Part shown: piece after piece, positions 4,262 through 60,870 of the stretch
Layout: each line of letters begins with the position of its first letter
How positions within the stretch are numbered: the first letter of the stretch is position 1
Source of the DNA: Simplicispira sp. 125
GTDB taxonomy: Bacteria; Pseudomonadota; Gammaproteobacteria; Burkholderiales; Burkholderiaceae_C
Direction of reading: 5' to 3'
DNA length: 64,000 bases
Assembly: GCF_003096555.1 (NCBI RefSeq)
Contig: NZ_QEKM01000001.1
Location: 3,348,001 to 3,412,000 of the forward strand
Position numbers and translations under genes: made by a program
The notes under the pieces: model-generated
Seen by the model: only the letters and a program-made list of their open reading frames with translations
The model's database searches: none
Told to the model about the DNA's origin: nothing

Positions 4262-5161
4262 ATGAGTCTTGCTTTGGTGCAAAGCCGCGCCCTGCTGGGG
4301 TTGCAGGCGCCGCCTGTCACTGTCGAGGTGCACCTGGCCAATGGCTTGCCCAGCTTCACGCTGGTGGGACTGGCCGAGGTCGAGGTCAAGGAGGCGCGTG
4401 AGCGCGTGCGTTCGGCGTTGCAGAACGCCGGGCTGGAGTTCCCGCACAACAAGCGCATCACCGTGAATTTGGCTCCGGCCGATTTGCCCAAGGACTCGGG
4501 ACGCTTCGATCTGCCCATCGCCCTGGGCATCCTGGCGGCCAGCGGTCAGATCGATGCCGCCCGTCTTGCAGGCTATGAGTTTGCGGGGGAGTTGTCGCTC
4601 TCGGGCGAGCTGCGCCCCGTGCGTGGAGCGCTGGCCACCAGCCTGGCGCTGCGTGCGCTGCCCGCCGGGGTGCGGTTGGTGCTGCCGCCGGGCAGCGCCG
4701 AAGAGGCCGCGCTGGTGCCCGACGCCCAGGTCTGGCGTGCACGCCATCTGCTGGACGTGGTACAGCAGTTTTTGCCGTCCGGCAGCACGGGTGAAGGCCC
4801 GGCGCCCGAGGACAGTGGCTGGACGCGCATGCAGGCTACGCCCCTGCAGACCACGGGTGTCTATGCCGACCTGGCCGATGTCAAAGGCCAGGCCCTGGCC
4901 AAGCGCGCCCTGGAGATCGCAGCCGCGGGCGGCCACAGTCTTTTGTTGATGGGGCCGCCAGGTTCGGGTAAATCCATGCTGGCCCAGCGCTTTGCCGGGG
5001 TGCTACCGGATATGACGGTGGACGAGGCGCTGGAGAGCGCCGCCGTGGCCAGTCTGTGCGGCCGGTTTGCACTGGAGCGCTGGGCCCTGCGCCCCACCGG
5101 CAGCCCGCACCATACGGCGAGTGCGGTGGCTCTGGTGGGTGGTGGCTGTGAATTACAATAA
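4262..5161 (+). pseudogene. comM: comM/yifB (Mg-chelatase-like AAA+ ATPase), 5' half only
   Basis: Encodes the N-terminal 295 codons of ComM, the hexameric helicase for branch migration in natural transformation. Full-length proteins have about 500 residues. Present are the Lon-protease-like N-domain (MSLALVQSRALLGLQAP...), the Walker A GPPGSGKSMLAQR near residue 240, and the segment HHTASAVALVGGG. Codons then change to C-E-L-Q-stop at 5147, where Walker B and the rest should follow. The start at 4262 has GGGGAG about 11 bp upstream. The cut lies where foreign sequence starts; the 3' half is not within the remaining 59 kb. comM is the integration site of AbaR-type islands in Acinetobacter (from memory). 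Confidence 0.93.
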
Positions 5162-5195
5162 TTTTTAAGACTCTACAATATTTAATGCGACCACA
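5147..5195. repeat. Island end: TGTG terminus with two 20-bp-spaced repeats (cluster E1)
   Basis: At the exact point where comM is lost, the sequence starts TGTGAATTACAATAATTTTT. TACAATA occurs at 5154 and again at 5174, 20 bp apart, each in an AT-rich unit ending in GAC. A TGT terminus with spaced repeats is the layout of Tn7-like transposon ends, where TnsB binds sites of about 20 bp; Tn7 itself has GGACAATAAAG next to its end. The copies are only partly alike, so this is a proposal. Confidence 0.55.
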
Positions 5196-5555: not shown

Positions 5556-7316
5556 TTAGAGTTTGTGCCCCTTGAGCAGGGGGCATTGCGGCCAAAGCGG
5601 ATCGAGGATGAGCGTGTGGACTTTTGCTCGCGTGATGCCGACTCGAAGCACACGTCGGCTTTTGGGATACGGGGCAGGGTCGCCTCGCCAAACGAAAGAT
5701 GATTCGACGGCGGGGCCCGTCCGACGAGCTTCGCGGACGAGGATGACTCCGTCGAACTGCTTGCCCTTGGCCTTGTGGAAGTTCATGACTTGCAAGCCCA
5801 TCGGTGGCTCCACGCCGTCGAGGATTTGCTCCTGTGCGAGAGCCAAGTCGAGGGCGGTGCGGGCGTTGGTGTAGGCGCCGTCGCGAAGCCATTCATCAGA
5901 GAGGGCAGCCGAGATGCGATGTCCCCGACGGAACGCGACCAAGAAGTCCAACTGCGCAGCGACCCGCGTGAGTTCGTCTTGATTGGTCGCCCGCAGCTCA
6001 TGTTTGACCGCGAGCCAGTCCTCGGCGGGATCGCCGCTGAAATCGTTAACTGCCAAGCCTGAAATCAGGCCGCGCAGCGCGTTGGCGATGTTGATGTTCA
6101 GGGCCTTGCCACCCTTGATTTTGTTGGCCTGCTCCAAGAGTTTGGCGACTTCCTTCCGGCCCTGTCCCGTCGCGCGCCTCGCGGCGGCGATCATTTCCAT
6201 GCTGGTGGCGACATCGGCCTCCAATTGGGCGAGATCCTTGGGTTCCAGCAGAAAGGCCGCGAAACGGGCTGACAGCAGCGCTTCGGCCTCGTCGAACAGT
6301 AGCTTGTGCCGAACCGGCCTACCGACGCTGGCCCCCAACGCGTTGAGGGCGTTGGACATCTTCAACGCACTGCGGTTGTTGGTGACCAGTATCGCGATCG
6401 TCTCCACCTTCTTGTCGCTCTGAGCCCGAATTGATTTCAAGAGCTCCCCGAGGGCTCGGCGCAGCAGATGATTCCAGTTCGGCGGTGGCTTCTCGGGGCG
6501 GTAGGCAAGGGCGGATACGCCCTTGTAGGGCGCGCCGCGTGGCTTGGCCGTCAGGATGTCATTGCCGAACGCCAAGATTTCGGAGTCCGGGCTGCGGTGG
6601 TTCTGCGTCCCAAGGTCGATCTCGTGCGGCTTCAACGCCGCCCGGATGGCGATCACGCGCTCCGGGCCGACGCCTGGTAGGTAGTCGAAGATTTGCTGCT
6701 CGAGGTCTGCCAGGCACAGCACCTGCGTGTGTGGCGCGAGCATCTGGATGCACTGCCACGCGTATTGGCCGGTGTCCTGGGCTTCGTCCACGATGATGAT
6801 GGGATGCCGATGGGCGATCGACGCCAAAAGATGCGAGCAGCGCGCCAACAGAGCTGTCGCATTGAGCGCGAACAGATCGAACGCGATCCGCCCCTCTTCT
6901 CGAAACAGCCGCTCACGCTCGACGAGCCACTCGTCCCAGCCATCGTCTTCGTCGCCGAGGCCGCCCGACAGGGCCTTCTCGTCGTGTGGCAGCAAGATCG
7001 AGAGCCTATGCGGTGCCCCAAGCAGGTAGGCGTGGGCTTTGAGGATATCCCAGAAGAACGAATGAAACGTCTGGATGGAGAGCTGCTCCTGTTCGGCTTT
7101 GGTGGACTCGAGCTTGGCGGCATCCAAGATGCGCGCCACTGCCGCCCGCGAGAAGCTCAGGAACAAGGCCGACTGACCCGGAAGCATGCCGTCGCGAATC
7201 CGCTTGACCGCCTTGCGCAGCGCGAGCGTCGTCTTGCCGCTGCCGGGGCCGCCGATGACCAAGACATGGCCCTCGCAAGCCATGACGCTTTCGCGCAGCA
7301 TGCAAGGCTCGTTCAT
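5556..7316 (-). CDS. gajB: UvrD/PcrA-like helicase, Gabija protein GajB
   Basis: A 586-residue superfamily 1 helicase. Walker A is GGPGSGKTTLALRKA (about residues 22-36), motif II is IIIVDEAQDTGQYAW, and late motifs include QVMNFHKAKGKQFDGVIL and RVLRVGITRAKVHTLIL. It is shorter than housekeeping UvrD (about 720), as Gabija GajB usually is. The start at 7316 overlaps the stop of the upstream gajA fragment by 4 bp (ATGA), the coupling seen in gajA-gajB operons. In Gabija, GajA nicks DNA when nucleotides are depleted and GajB acts on the products. Because gajA is truncated, this gene is probably an orphan without antiphage function. Confidence 0.8.
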   Translation of the reverse strand: MNEPCMLRESVMACEGHVLVIGGPGSGKTTLALRKAVKRIRDGMLPGQSALFLSFSRAAVARILDAAKLESTKAEQEQLSIQTFHSFFWDILKAHAYLLGAPHRLSILLPHDEKALSGGLGDEDDGWDEWLVERERLFREEGRIAFDLFALNATALLARCSHLLASIAHRHPIIIVDEAQDTGQYAWQCIQMLAPHTQVLCLADLEQQIFDYLPGVGPERVIAIRAALKPHEIDLGTQNHRSPDSEILAFGNDILTAKPRGAPYKGVSALAYRPEKPPPNWNHLLRRALGELLKSIRAQSDKKVETIAILVTNNRSALKMSNALNALGASVGRPVRHKLLFDEAEALLSARFAAFLLEPKDLAQLEADVATSMEMIAAARRATGQGRKEVAKLLEQANKIKGGKALNINIANALRGLISGLAVNDFSGDPAEDWLAVKHELRATNQDELTRVAAQLDFLVAFRRGHRISAALSDEWLRDGAYTNARTALDLALAQEQILDGVEPPMGLQVMNFHKAKGKQFDGVILVREARRTGPAVESSFVWRGDPAPYPKSRRVLRVGITRAKVHTLILDPLWPQCPLLKGHKL

Positions 7317-7888
7317 GGAGCGGCAGCAGCGGCGGCCGGTTCAGGTGGTGCTCCATCGCCGTCGTCGATCGGGGGTGGAGGTGGGAACAGTGCGAACGCT
7401 GACGCCAGAAACTTCGTCACTGTGGCCGGCAGCTCGTGGAGCTCGCACTCCTCGAACAGGCGCGCCGACCAGCCGGCGCCCTTGTTGCCGCCGAGGGCTT
7501 CTTTGGCGATGGCCTTGACCGCGTCGTCGTTCGGGCGCACATCGGGGATGGCGACGTTGCCGTTCTCATCATTGGCTTTTAGGCCCGACAGGAAGGACCA
7601 CAGCCGATCCACGGGCACCTCCGCCACGACGAGGTCTTCGAAGCCCTTGTAGGCGTGCTCAACATTGATTTCGAAGTTGTCCGCCAGAGCCTGCGCCTGC
7701 TCGGCCTTACGTTTCTTTTTGTAGTCAAGGTCGTAGAAGGCGAAGGTGCGTAGCCCCAGCGTCTTGAAGAACCTTCCGAACTTGGGCATGTTCGACTCGC
7801 CATCAGCGTCGAAGAAAGTCACACCCGCGATGTCCAGCGGCTGCAAGTTGGGATCGCTCTCTTCCATGCGCCTTGCGACGACGGGCAT
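7313..7888 (-). pseudogene. gajA: GajA (OLD-family nuclease) C-terminal TOPRIM fragment
   Basis: About 191 residues. The start reads MPVVARRMEESDP, which in OLD/GajA proteins follows the EGxTE motif of the TOPRIM domain, so the whole ABC ATPase part and the TOPRIM glutamate are missing. Further TOPRIM features remain: VTFFDADGESNMPKF and TFAFYDLDYKKKRK. The C-terminus is Pro/Ala-rich. It overlaps gajB by 4 bp. Upstream of 7888 the sequence switches to an unrelated gene on the other strand, so the 5' part, roughly 1.2 kb in intact genes, has been deleted or replaced. Confidence 0.78.
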
Positions 7889-7893
7889 CCGAC

Positions 7894-8469: not shown

Positions 8470-8667
8470 GGTCTTCATGTGTCCGAGCAGTGGAGGAACG
8501 GTGTTGAGATGACGGACCCCACTCGCTGAGCACAGCGAGCAATGATTGATCGCCAGAGATTTCGGATGTAGGGCAGAAAAGATATCGTCCACGGGGGCAT
8601 GCTTGCGCAGAGGTCACACTGGGGGCTTGCTTTGTGCCAGATTTTGCTTCCATGATAAGGAGCCGAC

Positions 8668-14013: not shown

Positions 14014-14035
14014 TGTTTTTCAAAGATCTCAATCG

Positions 14036-16303: not shown

Positions 16304-16317
16304 TATTTGCTCCTGTT

Positions 16318-30327: not shown

Positions 30328-31950
30328 TCACGATACCCCTGGCTGGCGACCGAGATTCCACGACACGCTGCCACCGCGCACGGTGGCGGCGAGCTGCTGG
30401 CCCAGGCGCTGTTCGATCACGGGTTTCCATGGCACCAGGCTGAACCCCATGCCGTCATCGAGCATCACGTAGCGCCCGCTGGCGAGCATGACGCTGCGGC
30501 GGTAGATGCCGGCCACGCGCTGGCCGTCCGCGACGAGCTGATGCTCCAGGCCGGTTTCCGCCGCTATGTCCTTGGCGGCCTGGGCCAGTTCGCGGTTGCG
30601 CAGCGTGCCCAGCAGGTTGCGCGCCAGGATCACACGCTGCCCGCGCCGCTCGACCAGGCCCTGTTCGGCGAGGAAGTCGGCGCGCTGCTGCATCGCCTGC
30701 TTCGCTTCGCTGCCAAAACCCAGATCGCCCAGGCCCTGGCCACCGCCAATCAACTGCTGATCCAGCCAGGTGGCCCCGATCACGCGGGCCTGTCGCTCGA
30801 TGGGCAGGTGCGATTTCAGCTCCACGGCCACGCCTCCCAGGCGCTGCGCGTCGTAGCTCCGGCCCTGCTCGGGCAGGTCGCCCGGCACCTTCCATAGACC
30901 CTCGGCCACGCGCTCCACGATGCCCGCCCGGCGCAGAGCCTCCAAGCGCCGGACATGGGTCGCCACGACCTCGGGCTGGCCCTTGGCGATGGCGAGGTGG
31001 TGGTCGGTGCGGTACAGCCCGTCAGTCGCCAATGCGGCGATGATCTGGTCGGCCTTGCGCAGGTCGGTGGAGCCCTTCACTTCCACCACGGCGCCCACGG
31101 GGTACTGTGCCAATTCAGTCTTGGGCGGCAGTGCCACATAGTGGGCCTTGCCATCAACGCCATCGACCACCAGATAGCCCCGGTCGTAAAGCTCGTCGGC
31201 CAGCCCTTTGCCCGCCACGCGGCCGACGATAGTGCGGCCATCATCACCGGGTTGGAACACGGTCAGCTCGCGCTGCCGTCCGCCCATCGCGCGTTGCATG
31301 GTGCGGATGATGTCACCGCGCTCGCCTAGGGCGCGCAGGGTCTTCTCTGCATCAGCATGCACGGCCCAGATGCTGGGCTGGGTTTCCGTCGCCAGGCCCA
31401 TGCGCTGCAAGCGTTGCAGGCGGCCTACCAGCAACAGGCGCTGGCTGCGCAGCCTGGGATCGTCGAAGCGTTCGACCTTGACCATGCCATTCACCGCCTC
31501 GCGCTGCAACGTGCGATCCAGGCTCGTCCAGTGCTCTTGCTCCACTTCTCGGGCCAGGCCGCGCTGGATCTCCAGCTCGCTGCGCGGCCCCAGCCATTCG
31601 GTCGCCAGCTCCATGGCCCGCTCGCGCATGCCGCGGGTGATGTACTGCTGCGAGATGATGAGATCCTTGCCCGTGTCATCCTTGCCGCGCAGCACGACGT
31701 GGGTATGCGGGTTGTCGGTGTTCCAGTGATCCACGGCCACCCAGTCCAGCCGGGTTCCCAGGTCGGCTTCCATGCGCTGCATCAGGTGGCGGGTGTAGGT
31801 ACGCAGGTCTTCGAGCTGCTCCGCATCCTCGGGCGAGACTATGAAGCGGAACTGGTGGCGATCGCCCCGGCCCCGCTCCTCGAAGGCTGCGGTATCCGCC
31901 TCGTCGGTCGTCGGGCCGTAGGCATGGCTTGGCTCGCCGCTGCGGCCTAC
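30328..31950 (-). pseudogene. rlxS: RlxS relaxase (DUF3363), N-terminus removed by an IS
   Basis: An open frame of about 540 codons. It includes HQFRFIVSPEDAEQLEDLRTYTRHLMQRME, LDWVAVDHWNTDNPHTHVVLRGKDDTGKDLIIS (metal-binding His cluster) and a long DUF3363 C-terminal region ending near LGRQPGVS. This is the relaxase of Tn4371-family ICEs. The frame runs open into the IS5-type element at 31951, where the first ~100 residues of a normal relaxase should lie; the far side of the IS does not show them. So the relaxase is cut and probably not functional. Confidence 0.85.
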
Positions 31951-33283
31951 CAGGCTGCAGAAATACTCCCCACCATCACTCCTCAGTTGACGCGCTGCCC
32001 GGACAATCGAGGCACCCCACCAACCAGACAGACGAGCCAGACATGCGCGGAGCTGATACCTTCACCGAGAGCCTATTCACCATGCGCCACCTCGATGATT
32101 TCGTTCCCGCCGATCACCCCCTGCGCGTGATCCGTGTGATGGTCAACAAAGCCCTGACCCACATGGATGAGCTGTTTGCCCGGATGTATGCGGCTGACAT
32201 CAAAGGCGGACGCCCCAGCATTGCCCCCGAGAAACTGCTGCGCGCCATGCTCATTCAGGTGCTCTACAGCGTGCGCTCGGAGCGCCAGCTCATGGAACAG
32301 ACCCAGTACAACCTTCTGTTTCGCTGGTTCATTGGCCTGGCCATGGACGATGCCGTTTGGGTGCCCACCGTCTTCAGCAAAAACCGCGAACGCCTGATCG
32401 AGCACGATGCGGTCATCGAGTTCTTCAATCAGATCGTGCAACAAGCCCAGGAACAGGAACTGCTCTCGGGCGAGCACTTCAGCGTGGATGGCACCCTGAT
32501 CCAGGCCTGGGCGGGCCACAAGAGCTTTGTGCGCAAAGACCGCCAGGGCGACGACGATACCGACGCGGGCAACTTCAAAGACCAAAAGCGCAGCAACGAC
32601 ACCCATGAATCCACCACGGACGGGGATGCACGGCTGTACCGCAAGGGCAAGACTGCCAGCGAACTGCGCTTCATGGGCCACACACTCACCGACAACCGCC
32701 ACGACCTGGTGGTCAGCGCCGTGGTCACCCAAGCTGACGGGTATGCAGAGCGTGAAGCGGCCAAGGCCATGATCAACGATGCGCGCCAGGCCCTGCCAAG
32801 CGATGAGCCCGTCACGATCACGCTGGGCGCGGACAAAGGCTACGACGCCAAGGAATTCATCCAAGCCCTGCAGGAGATGAACGTGCTGCCCCATGTGGCG
32901 CAGAACAAGTCAGGGCGTCAATCGGCGGTTCCTGACAGGATCGCGGGCAGCGAAGGCTACGCCATCTCCCAGCAAAAGAGAAAGCTGATCGAACAAGGCT
33001 TTGGCTGGGCCAAGACGGTGGGGCACATGCGCCAGGTGCTGGTGCGCGGGATCAAGAAGGTGGACCAGATGTTTGTGCTGACGATGGCGGGCTACAACCT
33101 CACGCGGTTGCGCAGCCTGGGGCAAATCCGTCTGCAGGGGCAGATGTGAAGGCAAAAGGGGCAAAAAAACCGTGCTTTGCGACTGAAAGCAGGCGATTTT
33201 GAGGGGTTGACTTTCAGGATACGGAAAAATGCGGCTACAGCCGCTGAACAGGTTCGGACGCTGGGGAGTATTTCAGCAGCCTG
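31951..33283 (+). mobile_element. IS5-type insertion sequence, complete
   Basis: Terminal inverted repeats CAGGCTGCAGAAATACTCCC (left) and CAGGCTGCTGAAATACTCCC (right, read on the minus strand) differ at one position. One transposase gene lies between. The flanks CTAC|...|CTAA give no clean target duplication, consistent with a deletion next to the insertion in rlxS. Confidence 0.85.
32043..33149 (+). CDS. IS5-family DDE transposase
   Basis: A 368-residue protein. The N-terminal domain (ESLFTMRHLDDFVPADHPLR...RPSIAPEKLLRAMLIQVLYSVRSERQLMEQ) is typical of this group. The DDE core has FSVDGTLIQAWAGHKSF (first Asp), TLGADKGYDAKEF (second Asp) and the YREK-like QQKRKLIEQGFGWAKTVG (Glu). Length and motifs look complete, so the IS may be active. 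The start at 32043 follows a weak AGACGAG ribosome site. Confidence 0.9.
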   Translation: MRGADTFTESLFTMRHLDDFVPADHPLRVIRVMVNKALTHMDELFARMYAADIKGGRPSIAPEKLLRAMLIQVLYSVRSERQLMEQTQYNLLFRWFIGLAMDDAVWVPTVFSKNRERLIEHDAVIEFFNQIVQQAQEQELLSGEHFSVDGTLIQAWAGHKSFVRKDRQGDDDTDAGNFKDQKRSNDTHESTTDGDARLYRKGKTASELRFMGHTLTDNRHDLVVSAVVTQADGYAEREAAKAMINDARQALPSDEPVTITLGADKGYDAKEFIQALQEMNVLPHVAQNKSGRQSAVPDRIAGSEGYAISQQKRKLIEQGFGWAKTVGHMRQVLVRGIKKVDQMFVLTMAGYNLTRLRSLGQIRLQGQM

Positions 33284-34757: not shown

Positions 34758-35579
34758 CTAGCCCCACCACTTTATGGTGTAGCCGCAGGCCTTCAACTCC
34801 TTCGACACTTCGGTCTTCCAACCGCCGAATTGGTCGAGTCCAACGTACACAACGCCACTGATGTCGTTGGGCGTTTCTATCTCGCCCTTGACCAGCGCGC
34901 ATACGTTTTCTCGACCAAGCTTCGCCATCAGGTACCCATGCTCGAACACAACATTCTGACGAGCTCGGTTCTTAGGAGGAATTTCTGATTCGTGAACGCC
35001 GCGCCCGTGGTCGCACGCGGTGTAGAGGACCAGGGCAAAGTCCGCATCATTGGTGTAGCGCTCAATCTTCTCAATGATCGTCATGCCTGAACTCGCCTGT
35101 TCATGCAGGATGATCGGCTCAAGCCCTAGGTCCGAAACGAAGCGTGCCACTTCCTGCTTTGCTTCGTTATCGCGGCCATGCACGATGAAGACTTTTCGCT
35201 TGTTCCGCGTGACGGGCGCGGCTACCGGTAAAGAACCTGGGGATCGCATGAACACTGGCGTAGCAGCGTGTTCGGGTGCTGCCGTCTGCTGTCCAAACTC
35301 CAAGGAGTCCAGCAAGGGGGTGAACTCTTTCGAAATGTACGTTCGCCGCTCTGCGTAGGTCTTGAATTTTGGCTGGATGAAATTCCAAAAAGAACTCAAG
35401 TCGCGATTTGTCCGGACAAATGGCGGAACCAAGTGTGCGGTATCAGACAAGGACAAAAGCTCCTGCCTGAGGGTGGCATATTCATTATTGTCCGCATTTC
35501 CGCCGGTAGCGTGGGAGCTCAGCAACGTGGCCAAATAATTGGCCTTCTCAAATGGGGTGTGCAGGAATTCTATGCTCAT
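34758..35579 (-). CDS. TIR-like nucleotide-binding protein (PF10137 type)
   Basis: A 273-residue protein. Residues 1-120 are a helical domain I do not recognise. Residues 128-273 form a PF10137 TIR-like domain: KVFIVHGRDNEAKQEVARFV, ILHEQASSGMTIIEKIE, DFALVLYTACDHG, then RQNVVFEHGYLMAKLGR with Glu213 in the position of the catalytic Glu of NAD-cleaving TIR proteins. The same domain serves as effector in Pycsar and CBASS Cap12, but no cyclase lies beside it here. Ligand or trigger is unknown; the N-terminal domain could be the sensor. An IS21 copy ends 20 bp upstream of the start, likely affecting its promoter. Confidence 0.8.
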   Translation of the reverse strand: MSIEFLHTPFEKANYLATLLSSHATGGNADNNEYATLRQELLSLSDTAHLVPPFVRTNRDLSSFWNFIQPKFKTYAERRTYISKEFTPLLDSLEFGQQTAAPEHAATPVFMRSPGSLPVAAPVTRNKRKVFIVHGRDNEAKQEVARFVSDLGLEPIILHEQASSGMTIIEKIERYTNDADFALVLYTACDHGRGVHESEIPPKNRARQNVVFEHGYLMAKLGRENVCALVKGEIETPNDISGVVYVGLDQFGGWKTEVSKELKACGYTIKWWG

Positions 35580-35706: not shown

Positions 35707-36534
35707 TTAGAACGGTTCGTCTGGCTCTGCTGATGCCGGTGCAGTTATGCTGCCTTTGCGTGCACTCTCTCTGGCCTTGATGCGTGACTTCGCCGCCAGG
35801 GTGCTGTGGCGGAAGCGGTGGGACTCATTTCCGGTCTCCACGATATGGCAGTGATGGGTCAAACGGTCCAGGAGCGCTGTGGTCATCTTGGCGTCCCCGA
35901 ACACCGCCGACCATTCCGAGAAGCTCAGGTTGGTCGTGATCACCACGCTGGTGTGCTCGTACAGCTTGGAGAGCAGATGGAACAGCAGGGCGCCACCGGC
36001 CTGGCTGAAGGGCAGGTACCCCAGCTCATCCAGAATCACCAGGTCCAGGCGCGACAGCGCCAGTGCGATGCGCCCAGCCTTGCCCTCGCGCTTCTCCTTC
36101 TCCAGTTCGTTGACCAGATCCACCGTGGAATAGAAGCGCACCCGCTTGCCCTTGGCTGCAATGCCCGCCACTCCGATGGCTGTGGCCAGGTGCGTCTTGC
36201 CCGTGCCCGGCCCACCAATGAGCACCACGTTCTGTGCCGTCTCGGTGAACTCCAGCGTACTCAGTTGCTTGACCAACTTGTGGTCTATCTTGGAGGCCTC
36301 GAAGTCAAAGCCTGCCAGGTCCCGGTGTAGCGGGAACTTGGCCGCCTTCATCTGGTGGCGCACCGAGGCAAAGGCCCGCTGTGCGTGCTCTGCCTGCAGC
36401 AGGTGCTCAATCAACCAGCGCGAGGTCTGTATGCCCACATCACTGCTTTGTCCCTCTGCAGTGGTCAACTCGACCCAGGCGCCGGCCATGCCGTTCAGGC
36501 GGAGTTCCTTGAATTGAGCAGCAATATCACGCAT
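35707..36534 (-). CDS. istB: IS21 helper ATPase IstB (copy 1)
   Basis: A 275-residue AAA+ protein with Walker [16 protein letters not shown] and Walker [18 protein letters not shown], close in type to DnaC. It assists IstA in target capture. The start overlaps the istA stop by 8 bp, as usual for the family. The protein is identical to copy 2 at 38387-39214. Confidence 0.95.
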
Positions 36535-37985
36535 GGCTCACGCCCTCCATGGCGTCGCCACGCAGGCTGTCGTAGCGCCCGGTGTCGGCCAGTGGTGCCT
36601 CCTTGAGATCCAGGGTGCTCTCTATGTTGGGAGGAGGCTCTGGCGCATCAAGCCGAGCCAATACGTTGAGAACGTGCTCGGTGCTGAGCGCGCCCGATTC
36701 GATCACCAACTCCACCGCCACCAGCACCGCTTCCAGTCCGTGGCTGGACACGCAGTTGAGCACCTGCGCCATGGTCTTTTCACCGCCCTCATGGCGCATC
36801 AAGCCTTGTCGCAATCGCTGCAAAGGCGTCGGCATGTCTGCAAAGGGCGCGCCATTTCTCAGGGCACCAGACTTGCGCTGAATCAGCGCAATGTAGTGCT
36901 GCCAGTCGTAGCAGATGTGGCCCCGGTTGGGCAGCCTCTCGTGCCGTGCCACGATCATTTCGTCGCTGGCGATCTCCACCCGGCCGGGGTACAGCCGGGT
37001 GCTCACGCGCTGGCCTGCCAATTCGCACGGCACCGAGTAGCGGTTGCGCGCCACCGCCACCAGGCAAGTGCTCGACACCTTGGCTGAGCGCTCCACATAG
37101 CCATCAAAGGCTGTCGGCATGGGCATCAGTTCCGCGCGCTCCTGCTCCAGCATCTCGGCCACGCTGAACGCCTTGTACTCTGGGTGGCGCACCTCCTCCC
37201 ACAGACTGCGGCAGCGTGCGCCCAGCCAAACATTGAGCTCGGCAAAGCTGCCAAACTTCTGCTGCTGCGCCTCCAGCCAGATGCGCCTGCGGCTGTCCTG
37301 CACGTTCTTCTCCACCACGCCTTTCTCCCAGCCGCTGGCTACGTTGCAGAAGTCGGCATCGAATAGGTAATGTGCGCACATCACGGCAAAGCGTGCGTTG
37401 ACGATGCGGCCCTTGCCACCTTGTCCGCCTTTGCCGCGCGGGACCTTGTCCACGGCCGTCTTCATGTTGTCGTAAATACCCCGGCGAGCCACGCCACCGA
37501 GCGCCGCAAAGGAACGGGTGTGGGCGTCAAACAGCATCTCGTGACCCTGGCTGGGGTAGGCCACCAGCCAGAATGCGCGGCTGGCGCACAGCTTCATGTG
37601 CGACACCTGCATGCGGTGGTAGATACCGCCCACCACCAAGCCCTCTTCGCTCCAGTCGAACTGGAACGCCTCGCCCATCTCGAACTTCAGTGGCACGAAC
37701 GCCCGGGCGTCCTTGCCAGCGTCGACGCGCCAGGCCCGGATAAAGTCCGTGACGCGGGTGTACCCACCCTCATATCCGCTGGTCTTGATTTGCGCAAACA
37801 AGGCGCGTGCCGTGCGACGGTTCTGCTTGGGTCGATGCGCATCGGCCTTGAGCGACTGCTCCAGTTCGGCCACATACGCATTGAGCTTGTTGAAGCCCGC
37901 CGTGCGGCTGTAGACGGGCTCCTTCACCTCCTCTGGCTTCCTCAGCCAGCTTCGCACCGTGTTGCGCGATAGGCCCGTGCGCTTG
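36527..37985 (-). pseudogene. istA: IS21 transposase IstA (copy 1), N-terminal ~30 codons missing
   Basis: The frame begins at the junction with AKRTGLSRNTVRSWLRKPEEV, the second half of the HTH, then has the rve/DDE core (FQFDWSEEGLVVGG first Asp, GIYDNMKTAVDKV second Asp, EKGVVEKNVQDSRRR Glu) and the normal C-terminus. The true start codon and HTH first helix are missing, so transposition competence is doubtful. Confidence 0.88.
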
Positions 37986-40961: not shown

Positions 40962-42185
40962 TCACTGCTTGTTGTCAACCAGCAAGGGTGCGTCAATGGG
41001 CATATCTTCTTGGATTACCCACTCGACTGAGTCGAGCCTCAGGCGGGTCAATTGCCTGAACACTTCGATCAAATCGCTTTGCGTGGCGTAGTGAGAAGCC
41101 CCTGGCGTTAGCACCGCGCGCAAGGTTGCAGTTTCCCGATGCTGCTTTTTTTCAACGATGATCTGGGCACGTTCTATAGCCGGGATCCGGATGATCAGCT
41201 CTTCCACGTTGCGTGGATAGATGAAAATTTCGCGTACTTTGACACCTTGGCCCACTCGGCCTTGCAACAAACTGATTCGTTCGACGAGACCATCCGGGGA
41301 ATGGGCCAGCGCTTGCGCCACATCGCCTGTGCCAAAGCGGACCAGAGGCCAACCGCTGTCCAGCGTGGTGACCACTATCTGGCCGGGTTCGCCCGGCGGA
41401 AGGGGTGCGCCGGTGTGCGGGTCGCAGATCTGGACGAGCCGGTCAGGCTGGACCGTGTAGCCCAGTTGTCCTAGTTCCTCGTAAGCAATCAGCCCGAAGT
41501 CGCCGGTGGCATAAGCCGAGAACGTGCGGATTGCGTATTTCTGCTCCAATGCGCGGCGCTTGCCCATCCAGTCACCCAGTTCGCCGCCCAGCATTGCGGA
41601 GCGGACCTTCCATTGAGAAGGCAGGTCGTAGCCCATGCGCTCAAGCGTTTCGACCAAGGTCACGAAGAAGGAGGTGGAGGAGCAAATGCAGGTGATGCCC
41701 AGTTCCATGATGAGCTGCGCTTGTTGCTCGGCGCCGCCGGGCCCGCAGGGAATGAGCGTCGCCCCGGTGGCAGCAATGCCCGCATCTAGCAATAGGCCGG
41801 CTGGAACAAGATGGTAGGACCAGGTGTTGAGTACACGGTCACCGGGGCCGATTCCCGCCTGCCTGAACACATGCGAGAAGCCCTTGCCAGTGTCTTCGTC
41901 GAAAGAATGGGGTTCATAGACGGGGCCTGGGGAGACATAAATGCGGCGGATAGATGTGTCGTCGGCAGCGAGAAACCCACCGAATGGCGGTGACTGGCGC
42001 TGCTTATCAAGCAGTGAATCCTTACTTGTGACGGCGAGCCGTGCAAGGTCGGCAGGGCCTTGGAGATCCTGCGGCGTCATCATTGCAAGCTGATAGACCG
42101 CGCGGATGGCCGGGGCGCGGTCGTAGGCGAATTGCTGCGAAGCACGCAGTAGTCTGAATCGATCGGTGGTGGGTAACGTATGCAT
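40962..42185 (-). CDS. Phenylacetate-CoA ligase-like AMP-forming enzyme (PaaK-type)
   Basis: A 407-residue ANL-superfamily protein with PaaK features: FGTGDVAQAL, GRVGQGVKVREIFIYPRNVEELI and a compact C-terminal domain. The usual SSGTTG P-loop is replaced by RIYVSPGPVYEP, a variant I know from a PaaK-like subfamily, so substrate or mechanism may differ from true PaaK. It lies 12 bp downstream of the enoyl-CoA hydratase gene. It probably makes or handles an aryl- or alkyl-acyl-CoA. Confidence 0.8.
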   Translation of the reverse strand: MHTLPTTDRFRLLRASQQFAYDRAPAIRAVYQLAMMTPQDLQGPADLARLAVTSKDSLLDKQRQSPPFGGFLAADDTSIRRIYVSPGPVYEPHSFDEDTGKGFSHVFRQAGIGPGDRVLNTWSYHLVPAGLLLDAGIAATGATLIPCGPGGAEQQAQLIMELGITCICSSTSFFVTLVETLERMGYDLPSQWKVRSAMLGGELGDWMGKRRALEQKYAIRTFSAYATGDFGLIAYEELGQLGYTVQPDRLVQICDPHTGAPLPPGEPGQIVVTTLDSGWPLVRFGTGDVAQALAHSPDGLVERISLLQGRVGQGVKVREIFIYPRNVEELIIRIPAIERAQIIVEKKQHRETATLRAVLTPGASHYATQSDLIEVFRQLTRLRLDSVEWVIQEDMPIDAPLLVDNKQ

Positions 42186-42197
42186 GGCGTTGCCGTC

Positions 42198-42980
42198 CTA
42201 GTGGCCCGTGAAGCGCGGGGTGCGTTTTTCGTTGAATGCGGCCAGGCCTTCGTGGAGATCGGCGCTGTGGGAATGCACTTCAGAGGCCAGAAGCTCCAAT
42301 CGCAGGGCGGTGTCTAGAGGCTGTTGCAAACCATCGTCGACCAGCGTTTTCATGCGGCGCAGGCCAAGGGGGCTCTTCGTGGCAATTTTGTCGGCCACGG
42401 CTTGTGCAACGCTTTCGAGCTGGTCGTCGTCCACCACTTGGTTGACGAGGCCCGCTTCCACAAGATCTGCCGCGTCCACGAAGTCACCCGTGAAGAGAAG
42501 GTACTTGGCGCGTGTGGGGCCAATGACCCGCGGCAGGCGCACCGACCCCCCCCCTCCGGGGATCAGGCCGTAGTTGGCATGTGCGTCGCCAATTTTGGCG
42601 CTCCTTGCCGCCAGCACTAGATCACAGCACAGCACCAGTTCGAGCCCGCCCGCCAGAGTTATGCCGTTCAGGGCGGCGATCACGGGTTTTGGAAAGCGGT
42701 CAATCCGGTTCATGGTGGACAGTACGCTGTCCAGAAAGCCACTGGTGCCACTTTCGCCCGCTTGCGTCTTGACGTACTTGAGGTCGGCGCCCGCGCAGAA
42801 GGCCCGTCCAGTGCCCGTCAATACGACGGATATCACGTCTCCGCGGCTCTGTGCTTCGTTGAGTGCGTGGTCTATTCCCCGAAGCACCGCCGGGGTCAGC
42901 GAGTTCATTGCATCAGGTCGGTTCAGGCGAATCCACATGGTGCCTTTTCGTACGTCTGTAATCACAACCGGTGTCGACAT
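42198..42980 (-). CDS. Enoyl-CoA hydratase/isomerase
   Basis: A 260-residue crotonase-fold enzyme. The oxyanion-hole motif GRAFCAGADLK and ALNGITLAGGLELVLCCDLVLAA with the glutamate-bearing AHANYGLIPGGGGSVRLPRVIG region are present. The start at 42980 has AAGGAA 6 bp upstream and is preferred over 43010. It leads the minus-strand trio and faces caiB-like gene 43118 across a shared promoter region with an operator-like site. It would hydrate the enoyl-CoA made by the acyl-CoA dehydrogenase at 53369. Confidence 0.9.
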   Translation of the reverse strand: MSTPVVITDVRKGTMWIRLNRPDAMNSLTPAVLRGIDHALNEAQSRGDVISVVLTGTGRAFCAGADLKYVKTQAGESGTSGFLDSVLSTMNRIDRFPKPVIAALNGITLAGGLELVLCCDLVLAARSAKIGDAHANYGLIPGGGGSVRLPRVIGPTRAKYLLFTGDFVDAADLVEAGLVNQVVDDDQLESVAQAVADKIATKSPLGLRRMKTLVDDGLQQPLDTALRLELLASEVHSHSADLHEGLAAFNEKRTPRFTGH

Positions 42981-43076
42981 CAGGGGTTCCTTGCTGGCTT
43001 GCGTGTTCATGGATCGATTCTGCTTTTGCCTCTGTTTTGAGGGACATGGGGTTTTCCATTACCCATAAGTTAAAAA

Positions 43077-43094
43077 TTCTACCCTAAAGTAAAA
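43077..43094. promoter_or_regulatory. Putative TetR operator, divergent promoter
   Basis: TTCTACCCTAAAGTAAAA matches the perfect palindrome at 44214-44231 at 14 of 18 positions. It lies in the divergent gap between the hydratase and CoA-transferase genes, 24 bp upstream of the latter. Confidence 0.55.
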
Positions 43095-43117
43095 CAATTA
43101 AACAAATGGAGTTCTTC

Positions 43118-44167
43118 ATGCGAAGTAAGAGCAGCCCGCTCATGTTCCCGCTATCGGGTATCAAGATCGTCGAGTTCGAGGGGATCGGCCCAGGGCCCTT
43201 AGCTGGGTTCATGTTGATGCAGATGGGCGCTGACGTTACTGTGGTCGGGCGGCCAGGTGCGAGCGCATTGCCTGATGAGCTCACTCCGAAGGACGGGGCG
43301 CTCTTGTCGCGCGGCAAACGACGCGTCACATTGAATCTCAAGAACGACGAGGACAAGGCGCGGGCGCTGGACATGGTCGCGCAAAGCGACGGGTTGATTG
43401 AGGGCAACCGCCCGGGTGTGATGGAGCGCCTGGGTTTGGGTCCCGATGTATGTGGTGAATACAACCCGCGGCTTGTGTATGGGCGCATGACGGGCTGGGG
43501 GCAGGATGGGCCGCTGGCTCAGGCCGCCGGGCACGACATGAACTATGTCGCTCTCACTGGGCTCATGTCGATCACCGAGCAACCGGGACACCCTCCCATG
43601 CTTCCACCCACAGTGGTTGGGGATGCTGCCGGCGCCCTCGGGTTTGCATTTGGCATGGTGTCGGCGTTGCTAGGCGCGCGGGATAAGGGCCAGGGCTGCG
43701 TGGTTGACGGCGCCATCATTGATGTGTTGGCAATGCTGTCGCCGCTCGTGCAACTGATTCGTCAAGGTGGCGGATTGGAAGGCAGCGAACCCAGTGTCTT
43801 CCATGACTCACCCTTCTACGACCGCTATCTGTGCAGCGATGGGCGATACATCACGGTCGGTGCAATCGAGCCACAGTTCTATGCATTGCTGTTGACGCAA
43901 TTGCAGCTGACGGATGTCGACCCCGCACGGCAAATGGACAAGACTTTGTGGCCGTCTCTCAAGGCGCGGATTGCGCAGCGCTTTGCTTCCCAACCTAGTA
44001 CGTACTGGAATGCACTGATGGAAGGCACTGACAGTTGCTTTGCGCCGGTGCTCACCATGGCCGAAGCCGCCGCTCATCCCCACAACGTGGCTCGTGGTTT
44101 GTACAGCGTGACTGAGCAGGGCGATATTGAGACTGCGCGGGGCATGCGATTCCTGCCGCTTTGCTGA
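43118..44167 (+). CDS. CaiB/BaiF-family protein, alpha-methylacyl-CoA racemase-like
   Basis: A 349-residue family III CoA-transferase fold protein. MFPLSGIKIVEFEGIGPGPLAGFMLMQMGADV is the typical start and EGNRPGVMERLGLGPDV the racemase (AMACR) motif; RMTGWGQDGPLAQAAGHDMNY also fits. The ATG at 43118 has GGAG 7-8 bp upstream, better than the ATG at 43106. It would invert 2-methylacyl-CoA stereochemistry so that branched chains can enter beta-oxidation. That the group is racemase rather than transferase rests on these motifs. Confidence 0.87.
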   Translation: MRSKSSPLMFPLSGIKIVEFEGIGPGPLAGFMLMQMGADVTVVGRPGASALPDELTPKDGALLSRGKRRVTLNLKNDEDKARALDMVAQSDGLIEGNRPGVMERLGLGPDVCGEYNPRLVYGRMTGWGQDGPLAQAAGHDMNYVALTGLMSITEQPGHPPMLPPTVVGDAAGALGFAFGMVSALLGARDKGQGCVVDGAIIDVLAMLSPLVQLIRQGGGLEGSEPSVFHDSPFYDRYLCSDGRYITVGAIEPQFYALLLTQLQLTDVDPARQMDKTLWPSLKARIAQRFASQPSTYWNALMEGTDSCFAPVLTMAEAAAHPHNVARGLYSVTEQGDIETARGMRFLPLC

Positions 44168-44213
44168 GCCGCGAATGTGATACCAAGGGTAATCCCTGGC
44201 AAGCAGTTGAGAA

Positions 44214-44231
44214 TTTTACTGTACAGTAAAA
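44214..44231. promoter_or_regulatory. Perfect 18-bp palindromic operator upstream of the thiolase operon
   Basis: TTTTACTGTACAGTAAAA is an exact dyad 65 bp before the thiolase start. Length and position fit a TetR-family dimer site; the TetR gene at 54617 is the obvious candidate. A degenerate copy lies at 43077-43094. Confidence 0.7.
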
Positions 44232-44296
44232 ACATCTTACGCAAAGTAATTTATTTGACTTTCATGGATCAAGAAGATCCGCCACGGAGAAATGCG

Positions 44297-45535
44297 ATGG
44301 AAGATATCTATGTGGTTGGTGTGGGGATGACGCCATTCGGACGGCATCTGGACAAAGACATCAAGGCGCTCACACGCGAGGCCACGGCGGCTGCTTTGGC
44401 GGACGCGGGATTGGAAAAAGAAGACTTGGAAGCGGCCTTTTTTGGGAACACTTCCCAGGGGCATATGGATGGCCAGCACATGATTCGTGGGCAAATTGCG
44501 CTGCGGGCCATGGGGATTGGGCGCATTCCGGTGGTGAACGTCGAAAACGCTTGTGCAAGCGGCTCGTCGGCGTTCGTTCTAGCCTGCAATCACCTCAAGT
44601 CGGGTGCTGGCGATGTCGCTTTGGCTGTTGGTGCAGAGAAGATGTTCTCATCCGACAAGCTCAAGATGTTCTCGGTGTTTGACAGTGCCTGGGATCTCTC
44701 GCGTGCAGAAGAGATTCGTGGGGAGTTGATGAAGATGGGGCGCGACGTGGCGGTGCCCGAGGGGAGTACCTCACCCAGGCCGTACAGCGTTTTCATGGAC
44801 GTGTATGCGGCGTTTGCACGATCGCACATGCGCACTTTCGGGACGACGCAGCGCCAGTTAGCCGCCGTTTCGTCCAAGAACCACGCGCACTCCATGCACA
44901 ACCCGCTGTCGCAGTACCGGATGGCTTACAGCATCGAAGAGGTGCTCGCCGCGCCGCCGATCACCTACCCATTGACTCTGCCCATGTGCTCCCCGGTGTC
45001 TGATGGCGCAGCAGCAGCCATCATTTGCACACGCTCGGCGCTTATGCGCTTGAACATCGATGAAAAGCGTGCCATCAAGGTGTTGGCGGCAGTAGTGCAA
45101 AGCGGTTCCGACCGGAGCGAAGACGACTACACCAACCACTGCACAGCACTGGCTTCGCGCAGGGCATATGAACTGGCAGGTGTTGGCCCAGCAGATATCT
45201 CGGTGGCCGAGGTGCACGATGCCACGGCCATGGGTGAAATCATTCAGACAGAAAACCTCGGTTTCTGTGAGTTCGGCATGGGCGGTGTGATTGCCGAGCG
45301 GGGTGATACCCGGATTGGTGGCCGCATTCCCGTTAATCCGTCCGGCGGCCTGGAGTCTAAGGGGCACCCTGTTGGGGCCACCGGTATTGCCCAAGTCCAT
45401 GAGTTGGTAACTCAGCTTCGCGGGGAAGCCGGACTGCGGCAGGTGACTGACGCAAGGATTGCGCTGGCAGAAAACGGTGGCGGTCTTGAGGGCATTGAAG
45501 AAGCTGTTGCCTGTATCACCATCTTGGCGCGCTGA
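44297..45535 (+). CDS. SCP2-type thiolase / acetyl-CoA acetyltransferase
   Basis: A 412-residue thiolase. The nucleophilic Cys is in VENACASGSSAF, the second motif is VHDATAMGE and the C-terminal motif NPSGGLESKGHPVGATG is that of the SCP-x/lipid-transfer thiolase subgroup. GGAG lies 7 bp upstream of the ATG at 44297. It cleaves 3-ketoacyl-CoA in the last beta-oxidation step; the subgroup often handles branched or steroid side chains. The SDR gene follows 33 bp later. Confidence 0.9.
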   Translation: MEDIYVVGVGMTPFGRHLDKDIKALTREATAAALADAGLEKEDLEAAFFGNTSQGHMDGQHMIRGQIALRAMGIGRIPVVNVENACASGSSAFVLACNHLKSGAGDVALAVGAEKMFSSDKLKMFSVFDSAWDLSRAEEIRGELMKMGRDVAVPEGSTSPRPYSVFMDVYAAFARSHMRTFGTTQRQLAAVSSKNHAHSMHNPLSQYRMAYSIEEVLAAPPITYPLTLPMCSPVSDGAAAAIICTRSALMRLNIDEKRAIKVLAAVVQSGSDRSEDDYTNHCTALASRRAYELAGVGPADISVAEVHDATAMGEIIQTENLGFCEFGMGGVIAERGDTRIGGRIPVNPSGGLESKGHPVGATGIAQVHELVTQLRGEAGLRQVTDARIALAENGGGLEGIEEAVACITILAR

Positions 45536-45568
45536 GCGCTGCACTCAATAAGAGACAAGAGAAACAGT

Positions 45569-46330
45569 ATGGATGTCAAAAATACCATTGCCTTCGTCAC
45601 AGGAGCTGCTTCAGGCCTGGGGCTCGCCACTTGCAAGGCATTGCTTGCGGCCGGAGCGAGCGTCATGGCGGTTGATCTGGACGAAGAGCGCCTTGCGAGC
45701 GAGGTGCTGCCGATGGGCGAGCGCGTGCGAATCCAGAAGGTTGATGTTTCGGACGAGGCCAGTGTGAAGGCTGGCGTAGACGCGGCAGTGGCGGAATTTG
45801 GTGCGCTGCATGTGGCGGTAAATTGCGCGGGAATTCTGGGTCCCTGCAAGACGCTTTCAAAGGGCGAGTTATTCCCGATGGATCTTTGGAACCGGGTGAT
45901 CGCCATCAACCTGACCGGGACATTCAACGTGGTGCGCTATGCGTCGTTGGCCATGTCGCAGAACGAGCCCAATGTCGACGGTGAACGGGGGGTCATCGTG
46001 AACACGTCATCTGGTGCTGCGTGGCAGGGTCAAGTGGGCCAGGCCGCATATAGCGCCAGCAAAGCGGCGGTCATTGGAATGACGCTTCCGGTGGCGCGGG
46101 ATCTTGCGCAACACGGAATCCGAGTGGTGGCCGTGGCGCCTGGTCTGTTTGAGACCGCCATGTCTGCAGGCATGCCAACGAAGGTGTCGCAAAACATTAT
46201 TGACAACGTCATCCTCTTTCCTCATCGCATGGGGCAGGCACAAGAGTTCGGTGGACTGGTTCGGCACGTTGTGGAAAACGCCTATTTGAATGCCACCACG
46301 ATCAGCCTGGATGCGGGTGTCCGTTGTTAG
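45569..46330 (+). CDS. SDR, HSD10-like 3-hydroxyacyl-CoA dehydrogenase
   Basis: A 253-residue classical SDR. NAD-binding TGAASGLG, NCAG (VNCAGI), catalytic Ser in NTSSGAA and YSASK are all present. The C-terminal NVILFPHRMGQAQEFGGLVRHVVENAYLNATTISLDAG closely follows the pattern of human HSD17B10/type-2 HADH. It would oxidise 3-hydroxyacyl-CoA to the ketoacyl-CoA for the thiolase encoded just upstream. Confidence 0.9.
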   Translation: MDVKNTIAFVTGAASGLGLATCKALLAAGASVMAVDLDEERLASEVLPMGERVRIQKVDVSDEASVKAGVDAAVAEFGALHVAVNCAGILGPCKTLSKGELFPMDLWNRVIAINLTGTFNVVRYASLAMSQNEPNVDGERGVIVNTSSGAAWQGQVGQAAYSASKAAVIGMTLPVARDLAQHGIRVVAVAPGLFETAMSAGMPTKVSQNIIDNVILFPHRMGQAQEFGGLVRHVVENAYLNATTISLDAGVRC

Positions 46331-46442
46331 TCGTGGTCCATTGATCGCTGCGAGCATTCCCGCAAATGGATGCGTAGACCCTGCAAAGGTCTTATGAAGG
46401 AAATTCGATGGACAAAGCCAAGAATTCAGAGTGGAGGTGCCA

Positions 46443-47240
46443 ATGAATGCAGCCATTCAAAGCCAGCGGGAAGGCGTGGTGCTGACAGCCCAGAATCTGC
46501 TGCTGCAGTTCGGTGGAGTTGTGGCGCTGAATGATGTTTCGATTGATGTGCGCAAGGACGAGCTGCTGGCAATCATCGGGCCGAACGGAGCGGGAAAGTC
46601 TTCTCTGATGAACTGCCTGAGCGGGTTCTACCGCCCCAAGAAAGGCGAGATATCCCTGGCCGGGCACAACGTGCGCGACATGGCGGTTCACGACGTGGCG
46701 GCACAGGGCCTAGCGCGCACCTTTCAAGGTACGCACATTTTTTCGGGCATGACCGTTATCGAGAACCTGATGGTGGGGCGCCACATGCACATGCGGGCCA
46801 ATCTCGTGCAGTCATTTTTCCATTTCGGCCCGGCAAAACGGGAAGAAGTTTTGCATCGGGAGGTGGTGGAAGAAATCATTGAATTTCTTGAAATTGAATC
46901 CATCCGGCATGCGCCGGTGGGCAGCCTCGGTTATGGGCTTCGCAAGCGCGTGGACTTGGGGCGCGCACTGGCCCAAGACCCGAAGATTCTGTTGATGGAT
47001 GAGCCTATGGCCGGTATGAATACTGAAGAGAAAGAAGACTTGGCACGTTTCATTCTGGATGTGCGCGAGGCAAAGCGCATTCCTATTGTTTTGGTGGAGC
47101 ACGACATGGGTGTGGTGATGGACCTGGCTGACCGCATCGCTGTGCTGGACTTTGGACGCAAGATCGCCGATGGAACGCCCAAGGAGATCCAGGCTAATCC
47201 CGCAGTGCTTAAAGCCTATCTTGGGGAGGGCGTCCAATGA
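46443..47240 (+). CDS. livG: Branched-chain-type ABC transporter ATPase (LivG)
   Basis: A 265-residue ABC ATPase. Walker A is GPNGAGKSS, Walker B ILLMDEPMAGM, and the C-terminus has the LivG-type HDMGVVMDLADRIAVLDFG. The signature loop is the degenerate LGYGLRKRVDLGRAL common in LivG. GGAGG lies 6 bp upstream of the ATG at 46443. The stop overlaps the ligase start by 4 bp (ATGA), tying uptake to activation. Confidence 0.9.
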   Translation: MNAAIQSQREGVVLTAQNLLLQFGGVVALNDVSIDVRKDELLAIIGPNGAGKSSLMNCLSGFYRPKKGEISLAGHNVRDMAVHDVAAQGLARTFQGTHIFSGMTVIENLMVGRHMHMRANLVQSFFHFGPAKREEVLHREVVEEIIEFLEIESIRHAPVGSLGYGLRKRVDLGRALAQDPKILLMDEPMAGMNTEEKEDLARFILDVREAKRIPIVLVEHDMGVVMDLADRIAVLDFGRKIADGTPKEIQANPAVLKAYLGEGVQ

Positions 47241-49204: not shown

Positions 49205-50085
49205 TCGATTTTATTAACTACCTGATAAACGGTGCGCTGTCAGGGCTTCTGTATGCGTTGATCGCCATGGGTTTCGTCGTGATCTATCGCGCGTCAAAGG
49301 TGTTCAACTTTGCACAAGGTGAGTTGGTGGTCTTTGGCGGCTACATGGTGTGGTGGACGATTATTCAGATGGGTCTACCGCTGTGGGTCGGATTGCCCGT
49401 GGCATTCGTTAGTGCTGCAATTTTTGGTTTCATGATTGAGCGGATATTTTTTGCCCGTCTGGTTGGGGAATCCGTCTTCTCGATGGTCATGGTGACGATC
49501 GGTCTCTTGATTCTGATCCGAGGCGTTGTGTTGGTGCTTTTTGGTCCACAGGTGCGTGCTTTTCCGATCATCTTTCCTCTGGATCCGATCATCGTTGGCG
49601 ATCTCATCGTCTCCCGTTCGATGCTCTACGGTGGAATTATGACCATCTTCATCGGCGTTGGCCTCTCCTGGTTTTTCAACCGGACAAGGGCTGGCTTGAC
49701 CATGACGGCCGTGGCGGAAGACCACCAGGTGGCCATGTCCATGGGCATCTCGGTGCAGCGTTCCATTGCCTTTGCGTGGGTGCTGGGATCCGTGCTTTCC
49801 ACACTGGGGGCGATAGTGCATTTGAGTGGCCGCTCCATCAACATGATGAGCTCCGACATCGGCCTGGCTGCCTTGCCGGTGGCCTTGCTGGCTGGGTTGG
49901 AGTCCCTCGCAGGTTTGCTGATCGCCGGTGTTTTGGTGGGTGTGATTCAGGGTTTGGCTTCGGCCTATCTCGATCCCCTGGTGGGGGGAGCGCTGGGCTC
50001 CGTCTTTCCTTTCATCATCATGCTGGTGGTGTTGTTAATTCGTCCCACCGGCATGTTCGGGTGGAAAACCATTGAGAGGGTATGA
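49201..50085 (+). CDS. livH: Branched-chain-type ABC permease (LivH)
   Basis: A 294-residue inner-membrane permease with about eight helices. GALSGLLYALIAMGFVVIYRASKVFNFAQGELV is the classic LivH start and the EAA-like loop TRAGLTMTAVAEDHQVAMSMGI is present. It overlaps the ligase and livM by 4 bp each, showing translational coupling. Confidence 0.93.
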   Translation: MIDFINYLINGALSGLLYALIAMGFVVIYRASKVFNFAQGELVVFGGYMVWWTIIQMGLPLWVGLPVAFVSAAIFGFMIERIFFARLVGESVFSMVMVTIGLLILIRGVVLVLFGPQVRAFPIIFPLDPIIVGDLIVSRSMLYGGIMTIFIGVGLSWFFNRTRAGLTMTAVAEDHQVAMSMGISVQRSIAFAWVLGSVLSTLGAIVHLSGRSINMMSSDIGLAALPVALLAGLESLAGLLIAGVLVGVIQGLASAYLDPLVGGALGSVFPFIIMLVVLLIRPTGMFGWKTIERV

Positions 50086-51140: not shown

Positions 51141-51225
51141 CCGCAATCCTGTTTTCTGCAGCCACCTTAGGCGCTGGGAAGGGCTGCTCCAATGCAAAGC
51201 GCTACTACAAAAGGAGACTTTTTTT

Positions 51226-52476: not shown

Positions 52477-52536
52477 TTGCAAATCGGCCTGGGTCTCGGG
52501 CCACCGAGACCCAGGCCACATCATCTGGAGCTACCC

Positions 52537-53325: not shown

Positions 53326-53368
53326 CCGCATTGGGTCAGTCGTTTTCCAAGTTTTCAAGGATGGGTTT

Positions 53369-54520: not shown

Positions 54521-54616
54521 TGAGCACGGCCTTTCTCCGCAGGCCTATCGGCGAAAGCAGTTCGATACACTTTGCCTCAGTTAGCGATACGAATGCCCTC
54601 AAGGAAAACAACACCA

Positions 54617-60869: not shown

Positions 60870-60870
60870 G

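Follow-up and report, generated by a model that had tools for sequence, protein, structure and literature searches.

The comM gene of Simplicispira sp. 125 is broken by an insertion, and the inserted 96,107-bp stretch is very probably one Tn7-like transposon of the Tn6022 type, as judged from its ends, its target duplication, its gene set, the empty sites in relatives, and the choice of comM as target. The DNA that we analyzed (the window, 64,000 nucleotides) corresponds to genome positions 3348001-3412000 on a single 3,966,897-bp contig. The element begins at window position 5147, fills the window to 64000, and continues through the stretches L006 and L007 (L007:1-17253) to genome position 3449253. 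A preliminary description of the window had taken the boundary at 5147 for a Tn7-like island end that cuts comM and had supposed the island to be large or rearranged. Both ends, a GTGGC duplication, the tns genes, and empty comM sites now bear out the former, as do the length and the nested insertion sequences the latter.

The 5′ part of comM (4262..5146, plus strand, 295 codons) encodes the ChlI domain and the first part of the Mg-chelatase domain (Pfam PF13541 and PF01078; NCBIfam TIGR00368 positions 1-284). In agreement with the preliminary description, its frame is open from the ATG at 4262 through the Gly-Gly-Gly codons GGT-GGT-GGC to 5146; the bases directly after are TGTGAATTACAATAATTTTTAAGACTCTACAATA, and the frame enters TGTGAATTACAATA and meets a stop within a few codons. 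The 3′ half had been reported absent from the following 59 kb, and a search downstream of 64000 had been proposed. We located it on the same contig, outside the window, starting at genome position 3449254, 96.1 kb beyond the left junction. The comM family model places the two halves at genome 3352277-3353149 and 3449151-3449891, the latter match beginning before the true junction and counting stops there. When the flanks were joined with one copy of the duplication, the ComM reading frame was continuous. The Asp-Glu codons of the Walker B motif start 60 bases from the right tip of the element.

The junctions carry the features of a Tn7-like end, namely TGT...ACA tips, more than one TnsB-like site per end, and a 5-bp target duplication. 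The latter, GTGGC, lies at 5142..5146 on the left and at L007:17254-17258 (genome 3449254-3449258) on the right; the left junction reads ...GGTGGC/TGTGAATTACAATAATTT and the right junction ...AAATTATTGTAATCGACA/GTGGC TCACCG. The inverted tips match at 22 of 26 bases. Both the duplication and the matching inverted end that had been sought are present. The left tip (5147..5195, plus strand), delimited by the tip match, the site offsets, and a core search, has a TGT terminus and two TnsB-like 19-bp sites at 5154-5172 and 5174-5192, within which the TACAATA copies first noticed in the window (5154-5160 and 5174-5180) are indeed 20 bp apart. The earlier reading of this terminus and its spacing as the end of a TnsB-type transposon holds, given the inverted right tip and the sites in both ends. 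With one mismatch allowed, the tip core ATTACAATAATTT, in which two free bases follow TGT, occurs at three places in the 3.97-Mb genome. The two exact copies are the tips themselves, inverted, and the third, with one mismatch, lies just inside the right tip; the core read backward was found nowhere in the same genome.

A model of the 19-bp site, TACAATAATTnATGnGACT, matched at offsets 8 and 28 on the left (two mismatches each) and at 8, 86, and 116 on the right (zero, five, and zero). Only four places in the 96-kb element, two per end, have two mismatches or fewer and all others have at least four, the site at offset 86 being no better than chance places. No extra element ends within the 96 kb are thus indicated, as no site with at most two mismatches lies away from the two ends. 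Because the model was built from these same ends, recurrence of the offsets in other elements is the stronger test. They recur in the right tip of Acidovorax soli (zero, five, and zero mismatches at 8, 86, and 116) and in Acidovorax carolinensis (right tip two, six, and one; left tip one and two). At a limit of eight mismatches, which some other offsets also pass, they are present as well in the genomes G336 (left six and eight; right five, four, and five) and G337 (left five and five; right four, seven, and three). The sites presumably bind TnsB. At the right end, site 86 overlaps the tnsA start codon at 17155 and site 116 falls in the first codons of tnsA (L007:17120-17168), an arrangement that could let TnsB repress its own operon.

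Between the ends lies a cargo in which several defense systems are predicted from profile matches. Next to the left end, on the minus strand, are GajB, the UvrD-type helicase of Gabija (5556..7316; PADLOC E 1.2e-254), and a C-terminal piece of GajA (7313..7888; profile positions 409-580 of 600, E 1.3e-40), a pair that looks like an incomplete remnant. A TIR-domain protein with a CAP12/PC-TIR domain (34758..35579, minus strand; Pfam) is the PADLOC candidate PDC-S35. Two CBASS-like clusters follow. The first (59826..62280, plus strand; Pfam and PADLOC) combines a patatin-like effector with a CD-NTase. The second (62356..63908, minus strand; PADLOC) consists of JAB (62356-62841) and an E1-E2 protein (62820-63908) that matches just profile positions 183-545 of 546, and beyond the window it includes a CD-NTase (L006:433-1683; PADLOC) and, on the other strand, a possible 2TM effector (L006:2357-3031). 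A Thoeris-type ThsB is found at L006:17066-18031. At L007:5624-8341, QueC-like and OGG-like genes adjoin a gene encoding nucleoside deoxyribosyltransferase and PfkB domains; together they may belong to a defense set, type IV CBASS-like or other.

The remaining cargo is of a different kind. An acyl-CoA catabolism block (40962..55297; Pfam) comprises AMP-binding, enoyl-CoA hydratase, CoA transferase, thiolase, short-chain dehydrogenase, branched-chain ABC transporter, acyl-CoA dehydrogenase, and TetR genes. Nested insertion sequences are represented by a transposase with DUF772 and DDE domains (31929..33149, plus strand; Pfam) and by IS21-type genes for IstB and an IstA-like protein with a Mu-type C-terminal domain (35707..37957, minus strand; Pfam). 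A partial inverted copy of the IS21 stretch was seen at 37985-39320 (1,336 bp, 100% identical by blastn within window 35600-39320). Window 12985-26387 holds large, mostly G+C-rich frames, several with Lcl_C, bacterial Ig-like, or IPTL-CTERM domains, that differ from the remaining cargo. The element further carries a type IIG-like methyltransferase, large repeat proteins (two with IPTL-CTERM motifs), and a DUF3363 gene. No antibiotic-resistance genes were seen in Pfam scans of 64 chosen open frames of the element.

Such a composition raises the question of whether all 96 kb move together. We consider it an even call that a smaller Tn6022-like element supplied the outer ends, that most of the 96 kb are later additions of insertion sequences and mobile elements, and that the mosaic may no longer move as a unit. 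Two other islands of the family, both with the comM halves on one contig, measure only about 37 kb (G160) and 32 kb (G252), the composition changes sharply along the window, and the IS21 and DUF772 insertions lie inside, together with the DUF3363 gene; DUF3363 typically occurs in plasmids or conjugative elements. Moreover, A. soli shares only 196 bp of the left end, at 97%, after which identity stops, and the next 3.2 kb of the Simplicispira sp. 125 element have just one 44-bp match in the A. soli genome. The two elements thus differ in cargo at least at the left end. However, the relative on the A. carolinensis plasmid pACP3.1 has tips about 70 kb apart, each next to a copy of the 5-bp duplication CGCGT. 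Since large relatives exist, size alone is no proof of immobility, and we retain the single transposon as our reading of the 96 kb, part of which may have arrived later.

The transposition genes, for which a search at the far junction had been proposed, are all present there, beyond the window. The genes tnsF, tniQ, tnsC, tnsB, and tnsA lie on the minus strand from L007:11072 to 17155 or 17179, tnsA itself running from L007:16433 to a start at one of these two positions. Neighboring genes hence encode a TnsA nuclease, a DDE transposase TnsB, an AAA+ TnsC, and a TniQ/TnsD protein (PF08722 for TnsA, PF09299 for the Mu-type transposase C-terminal domain of TnsB, PF05621 for TniB-type TnsC, and PF06527 for TniQ). 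A tnsE-like gene of 578 aa, recognized by its predicted fold, faces this module on the plus strand (L007:9332-11068). The features typical of the Tn6022 family are likewise found, with tnsF beside a short tniQ, tnsE on the opposite strand, and insertion in comM near Walker B. TniQ has 321 aa and TnsF 532 aa. In a comparison covering four proteins of the module, identity to those of an Acinetobacter baumannii plasmid copy was 24% over 415 residues for TnsF, which matched the protein in the same place, 25% over 194 for TniQ, 32% over 282 for TnsC, and 36% over 524 for TnsB. The A. baumannii counterpart of the 532-aa protein is TnsF, formerly orf3 or tniE (PMC10293859).

In this family, TnsF characteristically has zinc fingers at its N terminus and a part that resembles tyrosine recombinases but is inactive. 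A structure search with our TnsF model (mean pLDDT 79, pTM 0.41) gave no match at E 0.001 or better; the weak matches (best E 0.042) were to integron integrase, XerA, XerH, Cre, and LIM zinc domains, in agreement with the published description of TnsF, though not proof of it. A PDB sequence search with the TnsF profile returned seven matches, all to ribosomal proteins. For the model of the 578-aa protein (mean pLDDT 70, pTM 0.55), all six top matches were to the C-terminal domain of TnsE (probability 1.00; lowest E 6.0e-4), and TnsE_C was its sole Pfam match, below the cut-off of that family (E 0.095).

Zoogloea, the source of another comM-inserting element with a TnsF relative, is a betaproteobacterium. 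That element, Tsy (PMC10293859), consists of a tyrosine recombinase, an HTH protein, and the TnsF relative; its presence in comM here is extremely improbable and is ruled out by the gene content, because TnsA, TnsC, and TniQ (Pfam) and TnsB (C-terminal domain and homology) are encoded, tniQ and tnsC rather than recombinase and HTH genes lie upstream of tnsF, and the element has TGT/ACA tips and duplicated 5 bp of its target.

We then compared comM among 40 genomes including Simplicispira sp. 125. A match above the family cut-off was obtained in 33, of which 19 are of the same genus; the remaining seven are Simplicispira sp. 125, G003 (no match), G016, G019, G021, G027, and G031. The comM site was empty in all four same-genus genomes that were fetched (G011, G022, G006, and G014), the left flank matching up to 5146 and the right flank resuming after the duplication. 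The two matches abut to the base in G011, G006, and G014. In G022, the alignment restarts 12 bases in on both sequences, and so no extra DNA is present there. None of the four 10-kb stretches matched window 5147-9000 or L007:9000-17253. We give next to no credence to the idea that comM was cut by a simple deletion or rearrangement and that the repeats at 5147-5195 are due to chance: the window considered alone does lack the 3′ half, but at the far junction this half continues the frame after the 5-bp duplication, beside an inverted matching tip and transposition genes, exact copies of the core occur at the two tips only, and the four fetched relatives have an empty site.

In a family sample of 299 genomes, nine had a TnsF match: six were long (G000, G173, G262, G207, G252, and G160), one was a piece at a contig edge (G257), and two were weak (G205 and G078). 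comM is split in G000, G173, G207, G252, G160, and G257. The weak match in G205 has internal stops, and comM is intact in that genome. G262 has one intact comM besides the broken one, with a comM 5′ half on the contig of the TnsF gene (C192 and C133), which indicates that comM is present twice or that the assembly is mixed. A named scan confirmed 3 of 24 pattern matches as TnsF loci (A. soli, a Burkholderiales bin, and a Proteobacteria bin), all three with a split comM; the Proteobacteria bin, G337, shares coordinates with G173 and was counted with it as one. Among 46 pattern matches in viral contigs, no TnsF relative was confirmed.

Both junctions were read for seven comM insertions. The duplication is GTGGC in Simplicispira sp. 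125, G207, and G160 (the left tip of the last being without its first T), GCGGC in G336, GCGGG in G337, GCGGT in G252, and GGGTT in A. soli. Six of the seven insertions sit directly after the third Gly codon and that of A. soli one base further downstream; in all seven, the transposition genes are on the comM 3′ side. The comM halves are on different contigs in A. soli, G336, G337, and G207, where the tips and duplications suggest that one element joins them. TnsF proteins just 25-45% identical to that of Simplicispira sp. 125 are encoded by elements at the same comM codons.

The A. soli insertion bears on how recently these elements have moved. Its module, aligned without gaps for 8,071 bases as far as the tip, is 98.6% identical to that of Simplicispira sp. 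125, whereas the comM sequence beside it is only 78.0% (3′ side) and 78.9% (5′ side) identical, and the two insertions are one base apart. Near-identical machinery therefore entered two comM alleles recently and independently.

Relatives were also found on A. carolinensis plasmids. The module is about 82% identical in DNA on pACP3.1, a mobilizable 258-kb plasmid (MOBP; PLSDB), and no comM match was found in the fetched A. carolinensis stretches (L026 and L027), which include the surroundings of the pACP3.1 relative. Since tnsB is interrupted in both pACP3.1 and pACP4.1, where an IS3 transposase is annotated at that place in the latter, these copies may be unable to move by themselves. On pACP4.1 (NZ_CP021367.1), two left tips, at 9802 and 269034, share a 20-base flank, which suggests that a stretch is duplicated or that the assembly overlaps itself. 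The 71-kb circular record of pACNA2.1 (NZ_CP021360.1; L026 and L032) starts two bases outside a right tip and has its left tip at 60176. Its tip flanks share no 5-bp duplication, the record was left out of the insertion count, and no replication gene is named among the 61 features of its incomplete gene table; rearrangement or misassembly may account for this copy.

Based on these results, the following mechanism can be proposed. TnsF would bind the conserved Walker B region of comM, the short TniQ would bridge TnsF to TnsC, and TnsC would recruit TnsA and TnsB. The element would then insert by cut-and-paste immediately behind the third Gly codon, its tnsA end pointing to Walker B, and would duplicate 5 bp of the target. 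TnsF is most likely the protein that chooses comM: AjTn6022, an element of Acinetobacter johnsonii, requires its TnsF to enter comM, a 10-bp Walker B region being involved (PMC10293859), and in Simplicispira sp. 125 the gene order, homology, and shared target suggest that TnsF does the aiming. We infer that the Simplicispira sp. 125 element is still active. The TnsE-like protein probably directs family members to plasmids; such a route has been suggested for Tn6022 elements, and the insertion of the pACP3.1 relative outside comM and the TnsE fold would fit it. We also advance, at somewhat less than even confidence, the hypothesis that divergent Burkholderiales TnsF transposons are an active shuttle of defense genes with two targets, chromosomal comM via TnsF and plasmids via TnsE. 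Landing in comM would then give the host phage defense while lowering the replacement of the element by transformation.

When AbaR inserts into comM of A. baumannii, the gene is inactivated, and cells cured of the island regain high transformability (PMC7508600). By analogy, the break in comM should lower natural transformation in Simplicispira sp. 125, provided that the host is competent, and the defense cargo is in line with the view that mobile elements arm their host and at the same time switch off its transformation. TnsF-type insertion into comM extends beyond Acinetobacter, and the known family gains a host group, a TnsF far from the Acinetobacter sequence, a large size, a defense cargo, and a record of recent independent insertion. 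Our literature search found no description of a Tn6022-type element in Acidovorax, while the supplementary data of PMC10293859 may list Burkholderiales loci. Simplicispira sp. 125 and A. soli form a natural pair, with near-identical machinery in two different comM alleles. The divergent TnsF proteins at the same comM codons are a ready set for working out how Walker B is recognized, and plasmid copies that include the tnsE region provide a naturally occurring example of what may be a second route to a target.

By gene set, ends, and target, the element is a member of the Tn6022 (TnsF) family. The Tn6022-type module and the comM site support the original suggestion of a comM-targeting Tn7-like island in a betaproteobacterium, a host that its relatives suggest to stand near Acidovorax, and comM as a known AbaR/Tn6022 target agrees with the requirement for TnsF in AjTn6022. 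The latter (PMC10293859) resembles the Simplicispira sp. 125 element in TnsA, TnsB, TnsC, a short TniQ, TnsF, an opposite-strand tnsE, and comM insertion with a target duplication, but belongs to another host group, and the cargo of Simplicispira sp. 125 is defense and catabolism; the 24% TnsF identity to Acinetobacter refers to the A. baumannii plasmid copy, not to the A. johnsonii protein. The AbaR and AbGRI1 islands of A. baumannii are likewise inserted in comM. The 5-bp repeat reported for AbaR25, accgc (PMC3691203), reads GCGGT on the other strand, which is the duplication of G252 and, as far as the repeat itself can show, suggests the same insertion place; the available text of PMC7142300 gives no duplication sequence. 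AbaR islands carry antibiotic-resistance genes, unlike the scanned frames of Simplicispira sp. 125. Elements with CBASS or Zorya that interrupt comM in A. baumannii (PMC11472951) also place defense cargo inside comM, although the available text describes Acinetobacter hosts and mixed element types. The A. carolinensis plasmid transposons (pACP3.1, pACP4.1, and pACNA2.1) share the module (about 82% identical in DNA), have tips and tip sites of similar sequence, and also match the tnsE region. They differ in that the fetched stretches (L026 and L027) have no comM match, and in the CGCGT duplication of pACP3.1. Finally, Tsy of Zoogloea has a TnsF homolog and the comM target in common with the Simplicispira sp. 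125 element (PMC10293859), but uses tyrosine-recombinase machinery and has no Tn7 components.
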